Below are positions 5,984 to 53,902 of a DNA stretch of 64,000 bases, one piece after another. Below the pieces are notes generated by a model that was given only the letters and a program-made list of their open reading frames with translations, did no database searches and was not told the origin of the DNA. Position numbers and translations under genes: made by a program. Origin of the DNA: Acidovorax sp. 1608163 (lineage in GTDB: Bacteria > Pseudomonadota > Gammaproteobacteria > Burkholderiales > Burkholderiaceae_C); NCBI RefSeq assembly GCF_003669015.1, contig NZ_CP033069.1, positions 499,001 to 563,000 on the forward strand. Direction: 5' to 3'. Positions within the stretch are counted from its first letter, which is position 1, and each line of letters begins with the position of its first letter.

Positions 5984-7945
5984 ATGACCCCCCAGAACGG
6001 GCAGCCTGACGCGCACCCTGCGCCCCCCGCGCAACCTGGGCCGTTGGCTCACGAAGAGCCCAACCAGTTTGCCCTGCTGCGCCAGCGCCGGTTTGCGCCC
6101 TTTTTCTGGACGCAGTTTGCAGGCGCAGGCAACGACAACCTGTTCAAGTTCGCCTTCACGGTGATGGTGACCTACCAGCTCAGCGTGTCGTGGCTGCCGC
6201 CGACCATGGCAGGGCTGGTGATCGGTGCACTGTTCATCCTGCCGTTTTTGCTGTTCTCGGCCACCTCCGGTCAGCTCACCGACAAGTTCGACAAGACGCG
6301 GATGATCCGTTTCGTGAAGAACCTGGAGATCGCCATCATGGCGCTGGCGGCCGTGGGCTTTGTGGCCAACAACGTGCCGGTGCTGCTGTTGTGCACCTTC
6401 CTTATGGGGCTGCACTCCACACTGTTCGGGCCGGTCAAGTTTGCCTACATGCCCCAGGTGCTGAGCGAGCGCGAGTTGACAGGCGGCAACGGCATGGTCG
6501 AGATGGGCACTTTCGTCGCCATCTTGCTGGGCCAGGTGGCCGGTGGCCTGCTGGTGGCCATCCCTGGCATTGGCCACACTGCGGTGGCGGTGGGCTGTGT
6601 GGCCCTGGCGCTGGTGGGGCGCTTGGTGGCGCAGTTCATTCCCTCAGCCCCGGCCACCGACCCCAGCTTGGTCATCAACTGGAATCCCTTCACCGAAACC
6701 TGGCGCAACCTGAAACTCGCGCACGGCAACGTGGTGGTGTTCCGCTCGCTGCTGGGCATCAGCTGGATGTGGTTCTTCGGCGCCGTGTTCCTGTCGCAGT
6801 TTCCGGCCCTGGCCAAAGAGGTGCTGCACGGTAACGAGCAAGTGGCCTCGCTGCTGCTGGTGGTGTTCTCGGTGGGCATTGGCGTGGGCTCGCTGCTGTG
6901 CGAGGTGCTCAGCCGCCGCCATGTCGAAATCGGCCTCGTGCCCCTGGGTGCCATTGGCATGAGCGTGTTTGCGGTTGATTTGTACTTTGCCACCCGCAGC
7001 CTGCCTGCGGCCGAGATGATGGGCGCTGCCGCCTTTCTTGCGCAACACCAACACTGGCGCGTGCTGCTGGACCTGGCGCTGCTGAGCCTGTTTGCCGGGC
7101 TGTACAGCGTGCCCATGTACGCCCTGATCCAAATGCGCAGCCAGCCCACGCACCGCGCCCGCATCATCGCGGCCAACAACATCCTGAATGCGCTGTTCAT
7201 GATCGGCAGCTCCGTCATCGCCGGGGCCTTGCTGGGTGCAGGCTTCACCGTGCCGCAAGTCTTCCTGTTCACCGGCATTGCCAATGCGGTGGTGGCGGCT
7301 TACATCTTTTTGCTGGTGCCCGAATACCTGCTGCGTTTTGTGGCCTGGGTGCTGTCGCGCTTTGTGTACCGCTTCAAGGTGCGTGGCGACGAGCACATCC
7401 CCACCACGGGCGCGGCCATCCTGGCGTGTAACCACGTGAGCTTTGTCGATGCCGTGCTGCTCATGGCCGCCAGCCCCCGGCCCATCTACTTCCTGATGGA
7501 CCACCGCATCTTCCGCGTGCCGGTGCTTGGCTGGCTGTTCCGCCTGGCCAAGGCCATCCCGGTGGCGTCTCAAAAAGACGACCCAGCCACCTACCAGGCC
7601 GCGTTTGACCGCGCCGCCCAGGTGCTGCGCGAGGGCGATTTACTGGCCATCTTCCCCGAAGGCGGCATCACCAAGGATGGTGAGCTGCAAGAGTTCAAGG
7701 GCGGCATCATGAAGATCATCGAGCGTGCCCAGGCCGACGGTGTGCAGGCCCCCGTGGTGCCCATGGCGCTGACCAACCTGTGGGGCTCGTTCTTCAGCCG
7801 CGTGGAGCAGGGCACCGCCATGGCGAAGCCCTTCCGTCGGGGTATGTTCAACCGCGTGGGCTTGAATGTGGGGCCTGCGATGGAGGCCACCCAGGTGCAG
7901 CCCGCCGTGCTGCGCGAACGGGTGGCGGGGTTGCTGCGGGCATGA
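5984..7945 (+). CDS. LplT-like MFS transporter fused to a 1-acylglycerophosphate acyltransferase domain
   Basis: A 653-residue two-domain membrane protein. Residues about 30-435 are a major facilitator with the DNLFKFA and GQLTDKFDKTRMIRFVK motifs of lysophospholipid flippases (LplT). Residues about 455-650 are a PlsC-type acyltransferase with the catalytic HVSFVD (HxxxxD) and FPEGG motifs. The pair matches the LplT plus Aas system that flips lysophospholipid inward and re-acylates it; unlike full Aas there is no acyl-ACP synthetase domain. The ATG at 5984 follows GAGGAG by six bases, so upstream in-frame sequence is not used. The next gene starts within its stop codon, suggesting translational coupling. 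Confidence 0.85.
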   Translation: MTPQNGQPDAHPAPPAQPGPLAHEEPNQFALLRQRRFAPFFWTQFAGAGNDNLFKFAFTVMVTYQLSVSWLPPTMAGLVIGALFILPFLLFSATSGQLTDKFDKTRMIRFVKNLEIAIMALAAVGFVANNVPVLLLCTFLMGLHSTLFGPVKFAYMPQVLSERELTGGNGMVEMGTFVAILLGQVAGGLLVAIPGIGHTAVAVGCVALALVGRLVAQFIPSAPATDPSLVINWNPFTETWRNLKLAHGNVVVFRSLLGISWMWFFGAVFLSQFPALAKEVLHGNEQVASLLLVVFSVGIGVGSLLCEVLSRRHVEIGLVPLGAIGMSVFAVDLYFATRSLPAAEMMGAAAFLAQHQHWRVLLDLALLSLFAGLYSVPMYALIQMRSQPTHRARIIAANNILNALFMIGSSVIAGALLGAGFTVPQVFLFTGIANAVVAAYIFLLVPEYLLRFVAWVLSRFVYRFKVRGDEHIPTTGAAILACNHVSFVDAVLLMAASPRPIYFLMDHRIFRVPVLGWLFRLAKAIPVASQKDDPATYQAAFDRAAQVLREGDLLAIFPEGGITKDGELQEFKGGIMKIIERAQADGVQAPVVPMALTNLWGSFFSRVEQGTAMAKPFRRGMFNRVGLNVGPAMEATQVQPAVLRERVAGLLRA

Positions 7946-46371: not shown

Positions 46372-48533
46372 TCAAATCGTCAGCGGGTCCACATCCACCA
46401 GCCAGCGCACCAGGCCCTTGTGCTCTGGCTGGCTGCGCGTGGTTTGCAGCACGGGCTGCCATGCGGCCAAAAAGCGCTGCAGTGCGGCGCGGCTGCTGCT
46501 TTCCATCAGCATCTGTGCGCGCTCTACATTGGCCACGCGCTGGATGGTCAGCGGCACTGGCGGGAACAGGGTTACCAGCTCCAGCCCGGGCAGGCCTGCT
46601 GCGTGGGCTGCGGCGGTGGCGGCGCTCAAAAATCCCTGGGCCACTTCCTGCGTGCGCGCGTCGGCCCGCACCAGGGCCTGGTAGGCAAACGGGGGCATGG
46701 CGGCCTCTTGGCGCTCTTTCAATTGCTGCGCGGCAAAGGCCTCGTAGTCGTGTCGGCGCAGGGCTTCAAACACGGCATGGTCGGGGTGAAAGCTCTGCAC
46801 CCACATCTCGCACGGCGTGCCTTGGGCGGCCATGTAGGCGGCGTCGCGCCCGGCGCGGCCTGCGGCCTGCATGAGCAGCGCAAACAGCCGCTCGGGCGCG
46901 CGAAAGTCGCTGCTGAACAGCGCGCCATCGGGCTGCACGGCGGCCACCAGCGTGATGCGGCGAAAGTCGTGGCCCTTGGCAATCATCTGCGTGCCCACCA
47001 GCACGTCCACCTCGCCCGCGTGCACCTGGGCCAGTTGCGCCTCCAGCGCGCCTTTGGCCTTGGTGGTGTCGGCATCGATGCGGGCTACGCGGGCGGCGTT
47101 GCCGTCAGCGCGTTGCACGTTGCGTAGCAGGGCGGCCAGTTGTTCTTCCAGCTGTTCGGTGCCCCGGCCCATGGGTGGATGTCGGGGCTGCCGCAGCTGG
47201 GGCAGTGCGCTGGCACGCGCACCGTGAACCCGCAGTGGTGGCAGCGCAGGGTGCGGTCGGTCTTGTGGAACACCTGGTGCGCGCTGCAGTGCGGGCAGTC
47301 GCTTTTCCAGCCGCAGTCCACGCAGTGCAGCACGGGGGCATAGCCCCGGCGGTTGAGCAGCACCATGCTCTGCTCGCCACGCGCCACGCGCTCGGTGATG
47401 GCCTGCAGCAGAGGCGCGCTGAACACGGCACGCCGGGGCTGCTGGTTCATGTCCACCCGCCGCACGCGGGCCAGGGCGCCTGCGCCAATGCGGCTGGGCA
47501 TGTGCAGCCGCACGTAGCGCCCGCCCTCGGGGTCTTCGGGCGTGGGCGGGCGGCTGGCGTGCCAGCTCTCTAGCGACGGCGTGGCCGAGCCCAGCAGCAC
47601 CTTGGCGCCCTGCTCGCGCCCCCGCCAGATGGCGAGGTCCCGCGCCGAGTAGCGAGCGCCTTCTTGCTGCTTGTAGCTGGGGTCGTGCTCCTCGTCGACC
47701 ACGATGAGCTTGAGCCCTGGCAGGCTGGCAAACACGGCCATGCGCGTGCCCAGCACAATGCGCGCCGCGCCACTGTGCGCGGCCAGCCAGCTTTTGAGGC
47801 GCTGCGGGTTCGTCATGCCGCTGTGCAGCGACACCACGGCGCCCGCACCAAATCGCGGGGCAAAGCGGCCCACAAAGCGTTCTTCGAGCTGGGGCGTCAG
47901 GTTGATTTCGGGCACCATCACCAGCGCCTGGGCCGTGGCGTCGGCCTCTAGCATCTCTTGCACGCAGCGCAGGTACACCTCGGTCTTGCCGCTGCCGGTG
48001 CTGCCAAACAGCAGAAACGGGCCTTTTTCTGCAGAAATTCGGGCCCTGGCGCTTTCCTGTTCAGCGCTAAGTGCTATGTTTTGTATAGCGTTTTGTGGGT
48101 CGCCCAACTCTTCTGTTGTTCCCACTTTTCCCGCTTTCCCAGTCTCTTTGGCCGGGCGGCGCAGGCGCCGGGCCAACTGCTCGGGTTGGAGGTCGCGCAA
48201 CTGCGGGGGCAGGGCGGCCAGGGCCACTTCGCCCAGCGCGCGCTGGTAGTAGCGCGCCGCAAAGGCCACCAGGCGGCGCCAGTGCGCATCCAGCGGTGCC
48301 ACGCCCTCCAGCACCCCGGTCAGGGCGCGCAGGGTGGCGCCATCGGGCAGCTCGCCGGTGGCCTCTTCGGCGTCCCACACCACGCCCAGCACCTCGCGGC
48401 GGCCCAGGGGCACGCGCACCAGCGTGCCCGCAGGCAAGGGCGCGTGGCTGGCGTAGCTCAGCAAATCCCCAACGCCGCTGTGCGAGGGGGTTTGCAAAGC
48501 CACTTGGACGATGAATGGGGCGGGGGCAGACAA
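46372..48533 (-). CDS. priA: Primosomal replication restart helicase PriA, apparent frameshift
   Basis: About 720 residues if one base is restored. The N-terminal half has a 3' DNA-binding domain (VGDLLSYASHAPLPAGTLVRVPLGRREVLGVVWD), Walker A in GSTGSGKTEVYLR, DEEHDPSYKQ, and zinc-binding cysteines HCVDCGWKSDCPHCS and CHHCGFTVRVPAHCPSCGS. The C-terminal helicase half continues MGRGTEQLEEQLAALL in another frame. The break is at 47173-47175, where CCC(A) should be one base longer. PriA restarts stalled forks and is close to essential, so a sequencing error is more likely than a real knock-out. The first codon is TTG at 48533. An AGCGCT repeat lies in the coding region just before Walker A. Confidence 0.9.
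48047..48090 (+). repeat. Dispersed AGCGCT palindromic repeat, copy 8, inside priA
   Basis: Reads GGCGCTTTCCTGTTCAGCGC then TAAGTGCTATGTTTTGTATA and GCG. It encodes the AIQNIALSAEQESA segment before PriA's Walker A motif on the opposite strand, an added linker compared with PriA proteins I know. Confidence 0.65.
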
Positions 48534-48640
48534 GGCGATGGAGGGATGGGATGAGCGAGACGCTTGATTGTCGCTGCCTGTGCCTGCGGGTAAGAGCAGG
48601 TTCTACGTTCACAGACGATTCACAAGTCTTCCAGTCTTTC

Positions 48641-48761
48641 TGTGGATAACTTTGTTGAAAGCCTGTAGCCACCCGCGCTAAACCCGCATGGTGTAAGGCT
48701 TTCAACAGAATGCCCAGGAAATGGGCAGCGCAGAAAAAATCCTTATGAATCAATCATCTGA
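48641..48761 (+). repeat. ~121-bp structured repeat, element A1
   Basis: Starts TGTGGATAACTTTGTTGA (perfect complement of the DnaA box TTATCCACA) and ends GAATCAATCATCTGA. A 12-bp perfect stem (TGTTGAAAGCCT at 48653-48664 with AGGCTTTCAACA at 48696-48707) is followed by a hairpin TGCCCA-GGAAA-TGGGCA. Its 3' part CGCAGAAAAAATCC can pair with GGGTTTTTTCTGTG at 48773-48786. Confidence 0.85.
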
Positions 48762-48976
48762 ACGATTTTTGCGGGTTTTTTCTGTGTTAGTGCCTGGGCT
48801 GGGTGGGTGTGGCTGCCGTAGCGGGTGCCGTGTGCATAAGTCAGTGCGCGGCTGGCGTCAATAGCGTTGGCCCCGGTCAATTTGTGCTAGCGCCGTGCGG
48901 TGAAATTCCTGCTTCAGATGCACTGTGCGGGCTAAATGGTTGATTTTTCAGGGGTTTGTGAGAAATCCCAAATTTC

Positions 48977-49098
48977 TGTGGATAACTTTGTTGATATCCG
49001 CTGTGCACCGCGCGCCAGCCCCGTGAAATCGGGCCTTTCAGTGGTTTGCCCATGAAAAAGGCAGTGGTGTCGATGTGAATAAAATCAACCACTTAGCG
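48977..49098 (+). repeat. ~121-bp structured repeat, element B1
   Basis: Same start (TGTGGATAACTTTGTTGATATCC) and an end AATCAACCACTTAGCG. Central hairpins are CCCG-TGAAAT-CGGG and TGCC...GGCA. It is 336 bases after A1. Confidence 0.82.
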
Positions 49099-49218
49099 AT
49101 GCCTTGGCGATTTTTTCAAGAAAATTGCGCCGGATCAGAAAAAAGAGGCTGGGTGCGGTGCTCCTGTGCGTAGGTGCCGCGTCGTGCACTGTGCTGGGGC
49201 AGTGGCTACCGTGTTGGG

Positions 49219-49680
49219 ATGGCGGGCGAAAGGGGTGTTTTGTTGGACAAGAAAACCCAAAATTGGACGCTGGGTGCCCTGGGCTTGCTGGGGCTCGCCG
49301 GGCTGCTTTTTGGCCTCTGGGCTCGGTCTGCGCACCAGCCTACCGAGCCTATTGCGGTGGCCGAGCGCTTTTTGGGCCATTTGCAGCAGGAGCAGTACGC
49401 CGAGGCCTGGGCCCTGACGGCGCAAGGGGGCTACACGGGCGCCACACCGCAGGCGCTGCAGGCCGTGGCCGCCAGGCACAGTTGCCGGTCGGGGCGTGTG
49501 GTGGGCACATCGCCATTGCAAACCCATGGAAACCGCCTGCGCCGGGCACTGCGCGGGCAGCGCGTGGACATGGACGAGGTGCGTGTCGAGTTTGAAGGCA
49601 CTTGCCTGCTGGGTGTGCGCCTGCGCTGGTTGCCGGGCCGTGGTTGGCGGGTGGTTTACTTTGCCAGCCACGCGGGGTAG
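49219..49680 (+). CDS. Small membrane-anchored hypothetical protein
   Basis: A 153-residue protein lying between repeat units 1 and 2. One N-terminal membrane helix (WTLGALGLLGLAGLLFGLWA) is followed by a soluble domain with AVAERFLGHLQQEQYAEAWAL, a pattern seen in NTF2-like/DUF4878 proteins, and two cysteines. The ATG at 49219 is used; TTG at 49240 or 49243, six to nine bases after AAGGGG, is equally plausible. I do not recognise the family with certainty. Confidence 0.6.
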   Translation: MAGERGVLLDKKTQNWTLGALGLLGLAGLLFGLWARSAHQPTEPIAVAERFLGHLQQEQYAEAWALTAQGGYTGATPQALQAVAARHSCRSGRVVGTSPLQTHGNRLRRALRGQRVDMDEVRVEFEGTCLLGVRLRWLPGRGWRVVYFASHAG

Positions 49681-49719
49681 CCGATCGTGTGTGGGATCCT
49701 GCCGTGCCGCCATGCGTGG

Positions 49720-49780
49720 TTTTGCTACTGTATTAATAGCTGCTTGCGCTTATTGCATAAGCGCTAAGGGTTAATTTGGC
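49720..49780 (-). repeat. Dispersed AGCGCT palindromic repeat, copy 9 (inverted)
   Basis: On the minus strand it reads CTTAGCGCTTATGCAATAAG then CGCAAGCAGCTATTAATACA and GTAGC, one of the most complete copies. It lies just after the small membrane protein gene. Confidence 0.85.
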
Positions 49781-49852
49781 ATATATCCACGTGTGCACAC
49801 ACTCGCCCATCGACGGGCGCCTATCGGGTGCCGTGCACTCATCCCGCTTTTT

Positions 49853-49973
49853 TGTGGATAACTTTGTTGAAAGCCTGTAGCCACCCGTGCTAAACCCGCG
49901 TGGCATAAGGCTTTCAACAGAATGCCCGGCAAATAGGCAGTGCAGAAAAAATCCTTATGAATCAATCATCTGA
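49853..49973 (+). repeat. ~121-bp structured repeat, element A2
   Basis: Nearly identical to A1: TGTGGATAAC start, 12-bp stem TGTTGAAAGCCT/AGGCTTTCAACA (49865-49876 with 49908-49919), tail GAATCAATCATCTGA. The second hairpin is weaker (TGCC...GGCA). The poly-A block again can pair with a downstream GGGTTTTTTTTGTGC. Confidence 0.85.
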
Positions 49974-50186
49974 AGGGTTTTTGCGGGTTTTTTTTGTGCT
50001 AGGGCATGCTGCCCGATGGTGGCTCTGCTGCCTGCCGCTGCGTGTGCATAAGTGCAATGCCCAGCGTCGTCAATAGGTGGGGCCTGTGCAATGTGTGAGC
50101 GGCCGTCACCAGTGCTTGGCGTAGTGGGTGCACTTTGGTCGCTAAGTGCTTGATTTGGCGAGGGTTTGCAAGAAATCCAGAATTTC

Positions 50187-50308
50187 TGTGGATAACTTTG
50201 TTGATATCCCCTGGATGCGCGCCGCAACCCCTTGAAATGCTGGGGTTGGGGTTGGTTGCCTAGCAAAGTGGCAACCGGTGTGGTGCTATACGAATCAACC
50301 ACTTAGCG
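50187..50308 (+). repeat. ~121-bp structured repeat, element B2
   Basis: Starts TGTGGATAACTTTGTTGATATCC and ends AATCAACCACTTAGCG. Hairpins AACCCC/GGGGTT (50226-50231, 50242-50247) and GGTTGCC/GGCAACC (50254-50260, 50270-50276). It is 334 bases after A2. Confidence 0.85.
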
Positions 50309-50439
50309 GTTCAAGGTCGATTGCGTTTGAAAATATCAATCGCCACCGGCCTAGCGTTTGGGATTTTTAGGTGTGCACCAGGGCTGTGCACAACCGGGCC
50401 TGCGCAGGCCCGGTGGATTCCGGAAGGGCGGGGTCCCGT

Positions 50440-51555
50440 TCAGCCGCGCTGGCGCTGCGCGCGCGAGTGGCTGTGCACCGCTTCGACCAGCGCGGCCACA
50501 TGCTCAGGCGGCGTGAACTGGCTGATGCCGTGGCCCAGGTTGAAGATGTGGGTGGGGCCGGTGGTGGTGCGGTCGGTGTGCGGGGTGCCAAAACTGTCGA
50601 GCACATGGCGCACCTGCTGCTCGATTTGCGCAGGCGGCGCAAACAGCACGTTGGGGTCGATGTTGCCCTGCAGCGCCTTGCCGGGGCCGCCTACCTGGCC
50701 ACCGACGATGGCACGGGCGCGGCCCAGGTTGGCCGTCCAGTCCAGGCCCAGCACTTCGCAGTCGATGTCTTTCATGTCGTCCAGCCAGATGCCGCCGCCC
50801 TTGGTGAAGACGATGCGGGGCACGTCGGTGCCGTCCACACCGGTGCGCTTGAGCTGCGCCAGCACGCGCTTGGTGTAGGCCAGGCTGAACTCCTGGAAGG
50901 CGCCATCGGCCAGCACGCCGCCCCAGCTGTCAAAAATCATCACAGCCTGGGCGCCCGCGTCGATCTGGGCGTTCAGGTAGGCAGCCACGCTGTCGGCATT
51001 GATGGCCAGGATGCGGTGCATCAGGTCGGGGCGCGCATACATCAGGCTTTTGACCAGGCGGTAGTCGTCGCTGCCCTTGCCTTCGACCATGTAGCAGGCC
51101 AGCGTCCAGGGGCTGCCCGAGAAGCCGATGAGGGGCACACGGCCATTGAGTGCCTTGCGGATGCTGGTCACGGCGTCGAACACGTAGCGCAGCTTGTCCA
51201 TGTCGGGCACGGCCAGCTCAGCCACAGCGGCTTCGTCACGCACCACCTTGGCAAAGCGCGGGCCTTCGCCCTCGGCAAAGGTCAGTCCCAGACCCATGGC
51301 GTCGGGCACGGTGAGGATGTCGCTGAACAAAATGGCTGCGTCGAGCGGGAAGCGCTCCAGCGGTTGCAGCGTCACTTCGGTGGCGTACTGGACGTTGGTG
51401 GCCAGGCCCATGAAGCTGCCCGCCTGGGCGCGCGTGGCCTTGTACTCCGGCAGGTAACGGCCTGCTTGGCGCATCAGCCACAGGGGGGTGTAATCGGTGG
51501 CCTGACGGCGGCACGCGCGCAGGAATGTGTCGTTGGTGAGGGGGGCGTAGCTCAT
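50440..51555 (-). CDS. hemE: Uroporphyrinogen decarboxylase
   Basis: A 371-residue cytoplasmic enzyme converting uroporphyrinogen III to coproporphyrinogen III in haem synthesis. The N-terminal signature [15 protein letters not shown] and the central [16 protein letters not shown] with FDSWGG are diagnostic; the C-terminal [16 protein letters not shown] is the third conserved block. The ATG at 51555 gives the standard N-terminus ([15 protein letters not shown]). In related Burkholderiales hemE is next to priA, often close to the atp operon; here two repeat units and a small gene separate them. No strong ribosome binding site is visible. Confidence 0.95.
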
Positions 51556-51682
51556 CCGCTGATTGTCGCAGGGTGAGTGCCAGACCTTCCAGGCCCTGTG
51601 GCGCGCACGCCTTGGGGATTGCGCCCACATTGATCTAGGGCAAGACCGCAGTCCTGCCTTGCTTGCCTCGCCGTGGTGCGCT

Positions 51683-53263
51683 TCAGCGTTCTGCGATGTA
51701 GTGCGACATGCTGGCAGTCTCGCCGGGCGCGAGGAAGGTGCGCACCTCGGTCTCCAGGGTCTGGTCGGCCACTGTGGCGCGGGCGCGCTGGTGCAGGTAG
51801 TCGGCCCACGACTCCACGATGAACCGCTCCACGTAGCGCGAAGGCTCGCCCAGGTCTTTGTACACGCGCCAGAAGGTGGCGCCATCGCGGCGGCGTGGGG
51901 CCTTGAGGCGGCTGATGGATTCGAGGAAGGCGGAATCGGCGCCCGGGGCAATGCGGTAGCCAATTTCTACCGCCACGGGGCCGGCCTCGGGCAGCGGCTC
52001 GGCTTCGATGAACAACTCGTCCCACGGCGTGGCGGGGGTCACCTCGTGCAGGGCCCCCATGCGCAAGGGCATGGAGCGCGCCAGCAGCAGGCCAATGCCC
52101 ATGGCCGCCGCCGCCACGCACAGCGTGGGGGTCAGGCCCACCACGTCCGACACCGCGCCCCAAAACGCCGAGCCAATCGCAAACGCCCCCAGCGTAGACA
52201 CCATGTGCAGCGCCACCGCCCGCGAGCGCACCCAGGGGGGCGCGCTGGCCTGGGTGGCCGTGTTGAAGGTGGACATGGCCGACATCCACGCCGCGCCACC
52301 CAGCACCATGGCCAGGTACACCAGCGGGGCCGATTTGGTGAGTGCCGCCACCAGCATGGCCGCTGCAAACACCAGGCAACTGACCAGCACAATCGCATCC
52401 AGGCTGAAGCGCGTGCGCAGCTTGCCAATGACCAGCCCCACGGCCACCGCCCCGGTGCCAAGGCAGCCCATCAGCAGGCCAAACCCTTGCGCACCCGTGC
52501 CCAGCTGGCGCGCTGCAATCACCGGTAGCAGCGCCCACAGGGCCGATCCTGCACCGCTGAACGCCATCACCCGCACCAGCTGGGCGAGGATCAGCTCAGA
52601 GTGCCAGGCAAAGCGCAGGCCGCTGAGCATGCCGCCCCACAGCCGCTCTGGCGGCAGGCGCGACGGAGGGTGCGCGCGGGGTGGCCAGCGGCGAATCGAC
52701 TCCCACATGACCACCGTGGACAGCACCGACACCGCAAACACCCACCCCGCACCCAATTGCGCAAACACCAGCCCGGCCAAGGTGGGGCCCACGGCGCGGG
52801 CGGCGTTGTAGGCAATGCTTACCGCCGTGATGGCCTGGGGCCATTCGTCGCGCGGCACCGGGTCGATCACCGAAGAGTTCCAGGCTGGGGTCAGCATGGC
52901 CGTGCAGCACCCGCCCACAAACACCAGCAGCAGCACCGTGGCGGGCCCACCCCAGCCCGCCAGCACCAGCAGCGTGAGCAGCGCAAACGCCAGGGTCTGG
53001 GCGATCAGCGCGCCAGAGATCAAGCGCCGGCGGTCAGTCGTGTCGGCCAGCACCCCGGCGGGCAGCGCCAGCAAAAACATGGGCAAAAACACGGCGGTTT
53101 GCACCAGCGCCGCCAAAAATGAGGAGCCCGTCAGCTCCACCATGAGCCAGGCCGCCGCCATGGCCTGCATCCCGTTGCCAATGAAGAACACGCCGCCACA
53201 CAGCCACATGCCCCGAAAGGCAGGCTGGCGCAGGGGGCTCCACAAAGAAGTCGATGAAGACAT
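51683..53263 (-). CDS. MFS exporter (EntS-like) with C-terminal ABM-like domain
   Basis: A 526-residue protein. The first ~405 residues are a major facilitator of the MFS_3/EntS group ([49 protein letters not shown]). The last ~100 residues ([57 protein letters not shown]) are a soluble ferredoxin-like domain resembling antibiotic biosynthesis monooxygenase folds. This fusion occurs in several proteobacterial exporters of unknown cargo. The ATG at 53263 opens the protein. Confidence 0.8.
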
Positions 53264-53467
53264 GGCGTTGGCGTGTGCAAGAGGGGCCGCAGACGGGCGG
53301 CGGGTGGCGGAAAAGGCCGGAGGCAGTGGCGTGTTATGAGCCGTTTTGGGCCACGCGCCACAGCATATCTCTGTACCAGTGCCTCTGCAGGGCAAAGGCC
53401 TCGCCAAGTTTGCAAACGGCATGAACTTGCTCGCCTGGGGTTTAGGGCAACAATCATCCCAAATTTC

Positions 53468-53587
53468 TGTGGATAACTTTGTTGACATGCTGTCGGCACT
53501 TGCGCCAAACCCGCATGGCATAAGGCTTTGGACAGATTGCCTTGTAATTGGGCAAGACAAAAAAATCCTTATGAATCAATCATCTGA
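53468..53587 (+). repeat. ~120-bp structured repeat, element A3 (diverged)
   Basis: Starts TGTGGATAACTTTGTTGA and ends GAATCAATCATCTGA. The middle AAACCCGCATGGCATAAGG is like A1 and A2, but the long 12-bp stem is lost. The hairpin TTGCC...GGCAA is kept with changed bases on both sides. Confidence 0.8.
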
Positions 53588-53781
53588 CAGGTTTGGGGCG
53601 TTGGGCTTGTGGTAGGCGCTGGCATGCAGCCGCGCATGTCGCGCCCACCGATTGGTGTGTACAAGTGCGGCCGAAGCGGTTTCAGCGCTACCCCGGCTGC
53701 AGGTCTTTTTTTCTGTGGATTGTGCAGATTGCACCGCAAGTAATTGATTTGCCAGGGCTTTTGCCGGAAGTTCAGAATTTC

Positions 53782-53902
53782 TGTGGATAACTTTGTTGAT
53801 ATCCCGGTGGCACCCTCCGCAAGGCCTTGTCAGCATTGGCTTTGCTTGCGTTGCCTGAGAAAAAGGCAGGCAACGCGGTGCTATACAAATCAATGGGTTA
53901 CG
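53782..53902 (+). repeat. ~121-bp structured repeat, element B3
   Basis: Starts TGTGGATAACTTTGTTGATATCC and ends near AAATCAATGGGTTACGG. Hairpins GCAAGGCC/GGCTTTGC (53819-53826, 53838-53845) and GCGTTGCC/GGCAACGC (53848-53855, 53869-53876) occupy the positions of the B2 hairpins with different sequence. It is 314 bases after A3. Confidence 0.82.

Follow-up and report, generated by a model that had tools for sequence, protein, structure and literature searches.

Tandem DnaA-box and IHF-site elements beside priA in Acidovorax sp. 1608163, putative relatives of the DnaA-reactivating sequences of Escherichia coli

What kind of site is repeated six times around priA and hemE in Acidovorax sp. 1608163? 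The stretch of 64,000 bp analysed here (the window) covers 499–563 kb of the 5.05-Mb single-contig genome, and within a 5.2-kb array in it the 18-mer TGTGGATAACTTTGTTGA is present in six exact plus-strand copies, each at the start of one of the elements A1 to B3 of Table 1. The chance expectation, from shuffled sequences, is a mean of 0.01 copies, and no seventh copy was found in the 64-kb window at up to three mismatches. A preliminary description of the locus had reported six elements with this shared start, all in one orientation and alternating between two types, A and B, with A–B start distances of 336, 334 and 314 bp; all of this proved exact, and the two types can be aligned. Three readings had been offered, a DnaA-titrating site such as datA of E. 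coli, an origin-related locus and a multi-copy small RNA. Judged from sequence, we think it rather probable that the elements are instead sites of the DnaA-reactivating sequence (DARS) type, of which most Acidovorax genomes would have one pair and the present genome three.

The 18-mer contains a perfect DnaA box, TGTGGATAA (box II), so that the elements do begin with a DnaA box as had been described. A weak inverted box I sits 5 bp upstream of box II, and a weaker tandem box III follows 3 bp downstream. We compared 51 distinct Acidovorax A–B units, selected only by the presence of two 18-mers 290–350 bp apart. In all 102 elements box II is perfect and box III has two or three mismatches, being TGTTGATAT in 51/51 B elements and carrying three mismatches in 51/51 A elements. 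The tail resembles the consensus for integration host factor (IHF), WATCAANNNNTTR, and 47 of the 51 B elements match it exactly; the four remaining B elements and every A element (51/51) have one mismatch. When the interval from +90 to +115 was searched, the best match always fell at +105 to +107 (102/102), and we regard these as putative IHF sites; random placements of the search interval, which include the elements themselves, gave an exact match in 35 of 20000 cases and a match with one mismatch in 78 of 20000. The tail had earlier been given as of the GAATCAAyCA type and is better written as WATCAANNNNTTR in B elements and AATCAATCATCTG in A elements, B3 having AATCAATGGGTTA and not the yCA ending. 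A promoter with its −10 sequence in the tail, considered on inspection by eye, was dropped once the tail had been matched to IHF.

In 49/51 A elements and in 0/51 B elements an A6 tract is present in the 16 nt that precede the IHF site. Each of the 51 units has exactly one extra site resembling a DnaA box, near +190 (TGTGCATAA in 46/51), and the A–B spacing is 333–336 bp in 46 units and 306–330 bp in the remainder. If the last base of the IHF-like 13-mer is taken as the end point, the window elements are 119–120 bp long, where 120–122 bp had been given, and the repeat unit is really larger than 121 bp, with A, B and, at about +190, the third DnaA box together making up about 460 bp. The box-to-IHF span was 116–122 bp in 46 of 48 loci fetched as first matches of a box-plus-IHF pattern that permitted 105–135 bp, the reversed-pattern controls all being zero; since the pattern required both sites and only first matches were fetched, these loci are informative on spacing and flanks alone. 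Box I comes within one mismatch of TTATCCACA, at the 5-bp gap, in 12 of 18 class-level elements and in 13 of 40 Burkholderiales elements from outside Acidovorax.

Which known system has such a layout? In E. coli, DARS1 and the two DARS2 cores each consist of an inverted box I, a 5-bp gap, box II and box III, the register in which the boxes of the elements, with the weak box I of Acidovorax, also stand. At rppH–mutH, the site of DARS2, two equally oriented cores lie 316 bp apart, to be compared with 306–336 bp between A and B in Acidovorax, and an IHF site, putative in Acidovorax, stands downstream in both systems. The right DARS2 half has an IHF-like site (one mismatch) with 118 bp from box II to the IHF end, and the left half, at 108 bp, fits the published core with the IHF sites IBS1–2. 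Positions 1729–1757 of the E. coli stretch L176 fit the pair of IHF sites that has been published as lying 3 bp apart, with the core at about 1636; the provisional assignment of IBS1–2 to those bases is our own, made from the reported 3-bp separation. DARS1 (bioD–uvrB) likewise has this core geometry and differs from the elements in that no IHF consensus was found in its region. In the literature, DARS boxes I and II are opposing, head-to-head, with ADP release via DnaA contacts there (PMC8682772), DARS1 is described as needing no protein factors (PMC4585315), and DARS2 as needing IHF and Fis at set positions, the position of IHF being important and DnaA boxes IV–VI and the right half dispensable in a plasmid assay (PMC4245941).

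The likeness extends to a sequence-only profile (R1) of 43 Burkholderiales elements, three of them the B elements of the window; of the 43 Burkholderiales elements collected, three were excluded from R1, namely the two longest, L129 and L147, and one L139 copy out of three. R1 was run on nine E. coli stretches totalling 222 kb, which included DARS1, DARS2, datA, oriC and priA–rpmE, and of which 200 kb were control sequence (four 50-kb stretches). The top three matches were DARS1 (24.6 bits, model positions 7–125), the right DARS2 half (20.0 bits, 2–140) and the DARS2 core with IBS (17.6 bits, 8–142), followed by datA (16.0 bits, 16–64), a control site upstream of nrdA (14.9 bits, 24–59) and oriC (14.5 bits, 16–82). 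Two control stretches rescanned without filters gave at most 6.9 bits, and the E. coli priA region, likewise scanned unfiltered, had no R1 match above 1.9 bits. The earlier statement that no described family matches the elements was too strong. The site upstream of nrdA (L307 44687–44722), the best of the control matches, aligns on the box side only, and the nrdAB promoter is one that we take to be DnaA-regulated.

The elements are also conserved in position. A pair of 18-mers 306–336 bp apart is present in 43 of 47 genomes of the genus, the present one included (counted by hand), the others being G002, G019, G027 and G030; G002, which is reported as 100% complete, has zero 18-mer copies at up to one mismatch. 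Four to seven copies are found in 8 of the 47 genomes and a pair in most. In all 20 flanked Acidovorax stretches the elements lie upstream of priA, the nearest 69–203 bp from the PriA alignment, and hemE lies beyond in 19; the exceptions are L054, without a visible hemE, and L046, which has a single element. In this genome and in three relatives, further units are found at a distance of about 5 kb, flanked by other genes. Of 29 order-level loci found outside the genus with the box-plus-IHF pattern, 19 are between hemE and priA, and in the remaining ten neither gene is visible in the fetched stretch, of about 3 kb or less. The class-level search gave 18 loci (one from our own order): eight at priA, one at uvrB and nine with flanks to which no gene was assigned; the element upstream of uvrB (L166) has the flank of E. 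coli DARS1.

PriA similarity was used to fetch 80 species loci, and in 76 of them R1 finds a match upstream of priA, on the strand opposite to the gene (E≤2e-4), the four without one being L195, L246, L261 and L262; these are the best 80 of 591 and so lean to Comamonadaceae, and one of them, L265, matched only over model positions 21–64. Comamonas, Variovorax, Bordetella, Paraburkholderia, Pandoraea and others are represented. At E≤0.001, matches were found in 100/100 sampled Burkholderiales genomes and, short core-only matches counted in, in 91/120 sampled Pseudomonadota genomes, at least 69 of these 120 having a match that spans no fewer than 100 model positions (hand count); the E-values are rough, by the search tool's own statement, and some of the genomes had supplied training elements. 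By profile, related sites appear to occur in many other Proteobacteria. According to part of a review (PMC10380432), many proteobacteria have conserved sequences that resemble DARS1 and DARS2; passages of another paper (PMC4245941) give the DARS2 core as conserved specifically in E. coli-related gammaproteobacteria.

A genome-wide profile search, proposed in the preliminary description, found two places in the present genome besides the array. One is a seventh full-length element at 2102510–2102639 (L007 1488–1619), between an exbB/tolQ-like gene and xseA, and the other a partial cluster at 2.728 Mb; elsewhere R1 scored 12.5 bits or less. The 2.728-Mb cluster (L009 1497–1872) has three diverged DnaA-box repeats, each then followed by a TTGATTT motif, and gives partial R1 matches. 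We note that G015 has a full-length match at 2.419 Mb and a group of partial matches at 3.501 Mb similar to this cluster, and that dispersed full-length elements are found in some genomes of the class or phylum (nine matches in G853 and at least six in G703). A dispersed mobile repeat was also considered for the present genome and rejected, only ten matches to the 18-mer being found in it at up to three mismatches, six of them in the array.

How might such elements work? From the sites, their spacing, conservation and synteny and the profile similarity we infer DnaA binding, IHF binding and nucleotide exchange, and the apparent core geometry together with the rigidly placed IHF-like site makes a DARS-type role the best reading. 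DnaA would bind box II, which is perfect, and would cooperatively occupy the two weak boxes, the inverted box I and the tandem box III; IHF would bend the DNA at a set distance, the span between the first base of box II and the last base of the IHF site being about 119 bp, and the bend could bring the bound DnaA protomers into contact, whereupon ADP-DnaA would release ADP and could reload ATP. A, B and the intermediate DnaA box would form a unit comparable to the two core-like halves of DARS2, with three such units in tandem in this genome. More broadly, we see an even chance that the DARS-type element, with inverted box I, box II, box III and an IHF site that ends some 118 bp on, is an ancestral DnaA-control module of the Pseudomonadota, commonly beside priA in Beta- and Gammaproteobacteria, that E. 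coli DARS1 and both DARS2 halves are its relocated descendants, and that its amplification in Acidovorax produced a tandem array which sets the timing of initiation by dosage. If the elements work, regeneration of ATP-DnaA by DNA sites would be general in Burkholderiales and more widely, with the fixed DnaA–IHF spacing as its signature, and the variation in copy number among related Acidovorax would offer a natural dosage series for initiation timing. The hemE–priA location, the tandem amplification and the constant DnaA–IHF spacing are new to our knowledge; a literature search, whose coverage did not extend to the founding DARS paper (2009), gave no report of a DnaA/IHF element at hemE–priA.

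Several observations weigh against a DARS-type role. Box I, which is thought to matter for the head-to-head contact, is degenerate in Acidovorax, with three to five mismatches in 51/51 A and two to six in 51/51 B elements, and it has five or more in 14 of the 40 Burkholderiales elements from outside the genus; the A tail, moreover, is one position off the IHF consensus. DARS2 has the Fis sites FBS2–3, whereas the Acidovorax elements have no clear Fis site, the consensus being found in 12/51 A and 4/51 B elements and in 437 of 5000 random 80-mers; ten HTH_8 matches are listed, none of them settled as a Fis gene. The E-values of the DARS matches are modest (3.3e-6, 9e-5 and 4.9e-4 in 222 kb, or roughly 7e-5, 0.002 and 0.01 when scaled to the genome), datA is close behind (0.0016), and the DARS1 match stops at model position 125, before the IHF end is reached. 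Partial matches that we could not assign reach 24.0 bits in other genomes (G703, second contig), and the R1 margin of the DARS sites over datA and over the best control match is modest; within that margin the profile supports ranking DARS above datA. The array, with up to three tandem units at priA, lies 13.6% from the oriC candidate described below; in E. coli the corresponding distances are 10.1% for datA, which is nearest, 20.6% for DARS2, at mutH, and 32.9% for DARS1.

The elements might accordingly be compared with datA, at which IHF-assisted binding of DnaA promotes DnaA-ATP hydrolysis or titrates DnaA and so restrains re-initiation. DnaA boxes plus IHF are also the make-up of datA, as given in part of the same review (PMC10380432), and the copy number and early-replicating position would suit such a role, as would the weak box I and the finding that 6 of the 11 TGTGGATAAC sites of the whole genome fall inside the array; datA is itself the fourth R1 match in E. 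coli. The box layout of datA differs, however, and R1 covers only its box II side, as against the whole span from box to IHF site in both DARS2 cores and most of it in DARS1, while the inverted box I at the DARS gap is clear in two-thirds of the class-level elements. Given the weak Acidovorax box I, the want of a clear Fis site and the datA-like distance from oriC, we keep a datA or titration role as the main, if rather unlikely, alternative. The preliminary description has in this respect the support of the sequence for a chromosomal locus of DnaA-binding control, and probably named the wrong member, profile and box geometry outside Acidovorax being nearer to DARS1 and DARS2. An operator at which DnaA and IHF control priA transcription, with the extra copies as by-products of duplication, would account for the short distance to PriA, for the upstream matches at most priA loci and for the eight class-level loci there; it is made improbable by the units found some 5 kb off between other genes, by the full-length element beside xseA and that at uvrB in another genome, and by the E. 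coli priA region, which R1 does not recognize. Still less is to be said for a multi-copy small RNA with its own terminator. Single-sequence folds of A1, A2 and B3 do beat shuffles (z −6.7, −5.1 and −3.6), the hairpin of A1 and A2 ends in a U-run, and the alignment of B elements has a slight edge in stability over shuffled versions (z −2.5, against −1.3 for the A alignment), but A3, B1 and B2 are unremarkable (z −0.2 to −1.7). RNAalifold gave −3.8 kcal/mol for 51 A and −4.3 kcal/mol for 49 B elements, with small covariation terms, and energies as low as these came up in 10 and 4, respectively, of 100 column-shuffled alignments; nothing in the locus reached an Rfam gathering threshold, the one match being at chance level and far below its threshold; the small RNA that had been suggested is thus very improbable.

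Could the array be an origin of replication, or the relic of one? DnaA boxes and IHF sites are parts of oriC, and placement by GC skew had been suggested at the outset. The sampled skew switches sign somewhere from 4.85 Mb to 0.1 Mb and is positive on both sides of the array, and its cumulative minimum is at about 4.90–4.905 Mb (within 4.85–0.159 Mb), where there is a cluster of DnaA boxes. The oriC candidate at 4.9047–4.9056 Mb (L111 16760–17740), about 66 kb from dnaA, has DnaA boxes in common with the array and differs from it in having two copies of TTGTCCACA together with AT-rich DNA and trio-like repeats; at up to two mismatches, the trio motif was found in the present genome at this place only and not in the array. 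This 4.905-Mb site is likely to be a bipartite oriC. Since the array lies between hemE and priA, 689 kb from a separate candidate, it is probably not oriC, and we attach hardly any weight to the origin-related role first proposed for it or to its being a relic; the 2.102-Mb element is 44.5% of the genome from the candidate. The trio motif is present in 14 of 17 queried genomes (not found in G053, G065 and G073), twice or more in 13 and once in G045, the reversed-motif control giving one match each in G032, G035, G053 and G073. In the 14 genomes the priA locus is 10.8–14.0% of the contig from the oriC candidate, several contigs of the comparison, G037 among them, being less than a whole genome; this constant distance could be explained by conserved gene order alone.

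Table 1. Positions in the window of the six elements, their component sites and the flanking genes
Feature	Position	Strand	Remarks
Element A1	48641..48760	+	DnaA box II 48641-48649
A1 degenerate inverted box I	48627-48635		
A1 box III-like TGTTGAAAG	48653-48661		
A1 A6 tract	48734-48739		
A1 IHF-like AATCAATCATCTG	48748-48760		One mismatch to WATCAANNNNTTR
Unit 1 intermediate DnaA box TGTGCATAA	48831..48839	+	
Element B1	48977..49095	+	DnaA box II 48977-48985
B1 box III-like TGTTGATAT	48989-48997		
B1 putative IHF site AATCAACCACTTA	49083-49095		
Element A2	49853..49972	+	DnaA box II 49853-49861; A6 tract; IHF-like AATCAATCATCTG 49960-49972
Unit 2 intermediate DnaA box TGTGCATAA	50043..50051	+	
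TAAGTGCTTGATTT upstream of B2	50143..50156	-	Minus strand reads AAATCAAGCACTTA, an inverted IHF-like site
Element B2	50187..50305	+	DnaA box II 50187-50195; putative IHF site AATCAACCACTTA 50293-50305
Element A3	53468..53586	+	DnaA box II 53468-53476; IHF-like AATCAATCATCTG 53574-53586
Unit 3 intermediate DnaA box, variant TGTGTACAA	53656..53664	+	
Element B3	53782..53900	+	DnaA box II 53782-53790; putative IHF site AATCAATGGGTTA 53888-53900
priA (primosomal protein N')	46372..48533	-	Open reading frame (ORF) start 48533, 108 bp from A1
hemE (uroporphyrinogen decarboxylase)	50440..51546	-	Second conserved flank

Some smaller features of the window may be added. A sequence resembling the TAAGTGCTTGATTT found upstream of B2 precedes several elements of other genera (seen by eye and uncounted). 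Elements A1 and A2 contain a 12-bp perfect inverted repeat that begins inside the 18-mer, TGTTGAAAGCCT / AGGCTTTCAACA (window 48653–48707 and 49865–49919, respectively), and that is missing in A3. The priA gene is split at window 47085–47172 over two overlapping frames (ORFs of 482 and 266 aa), which reflects either a frameshift or a sequencing error, and in the near-identical relative L060 it is uninterrupted in a single frame. Far from the array, window positions 6705–6826 match the Rfam family Bcj11 (Burkholderia RNA 11) with 98 bits.

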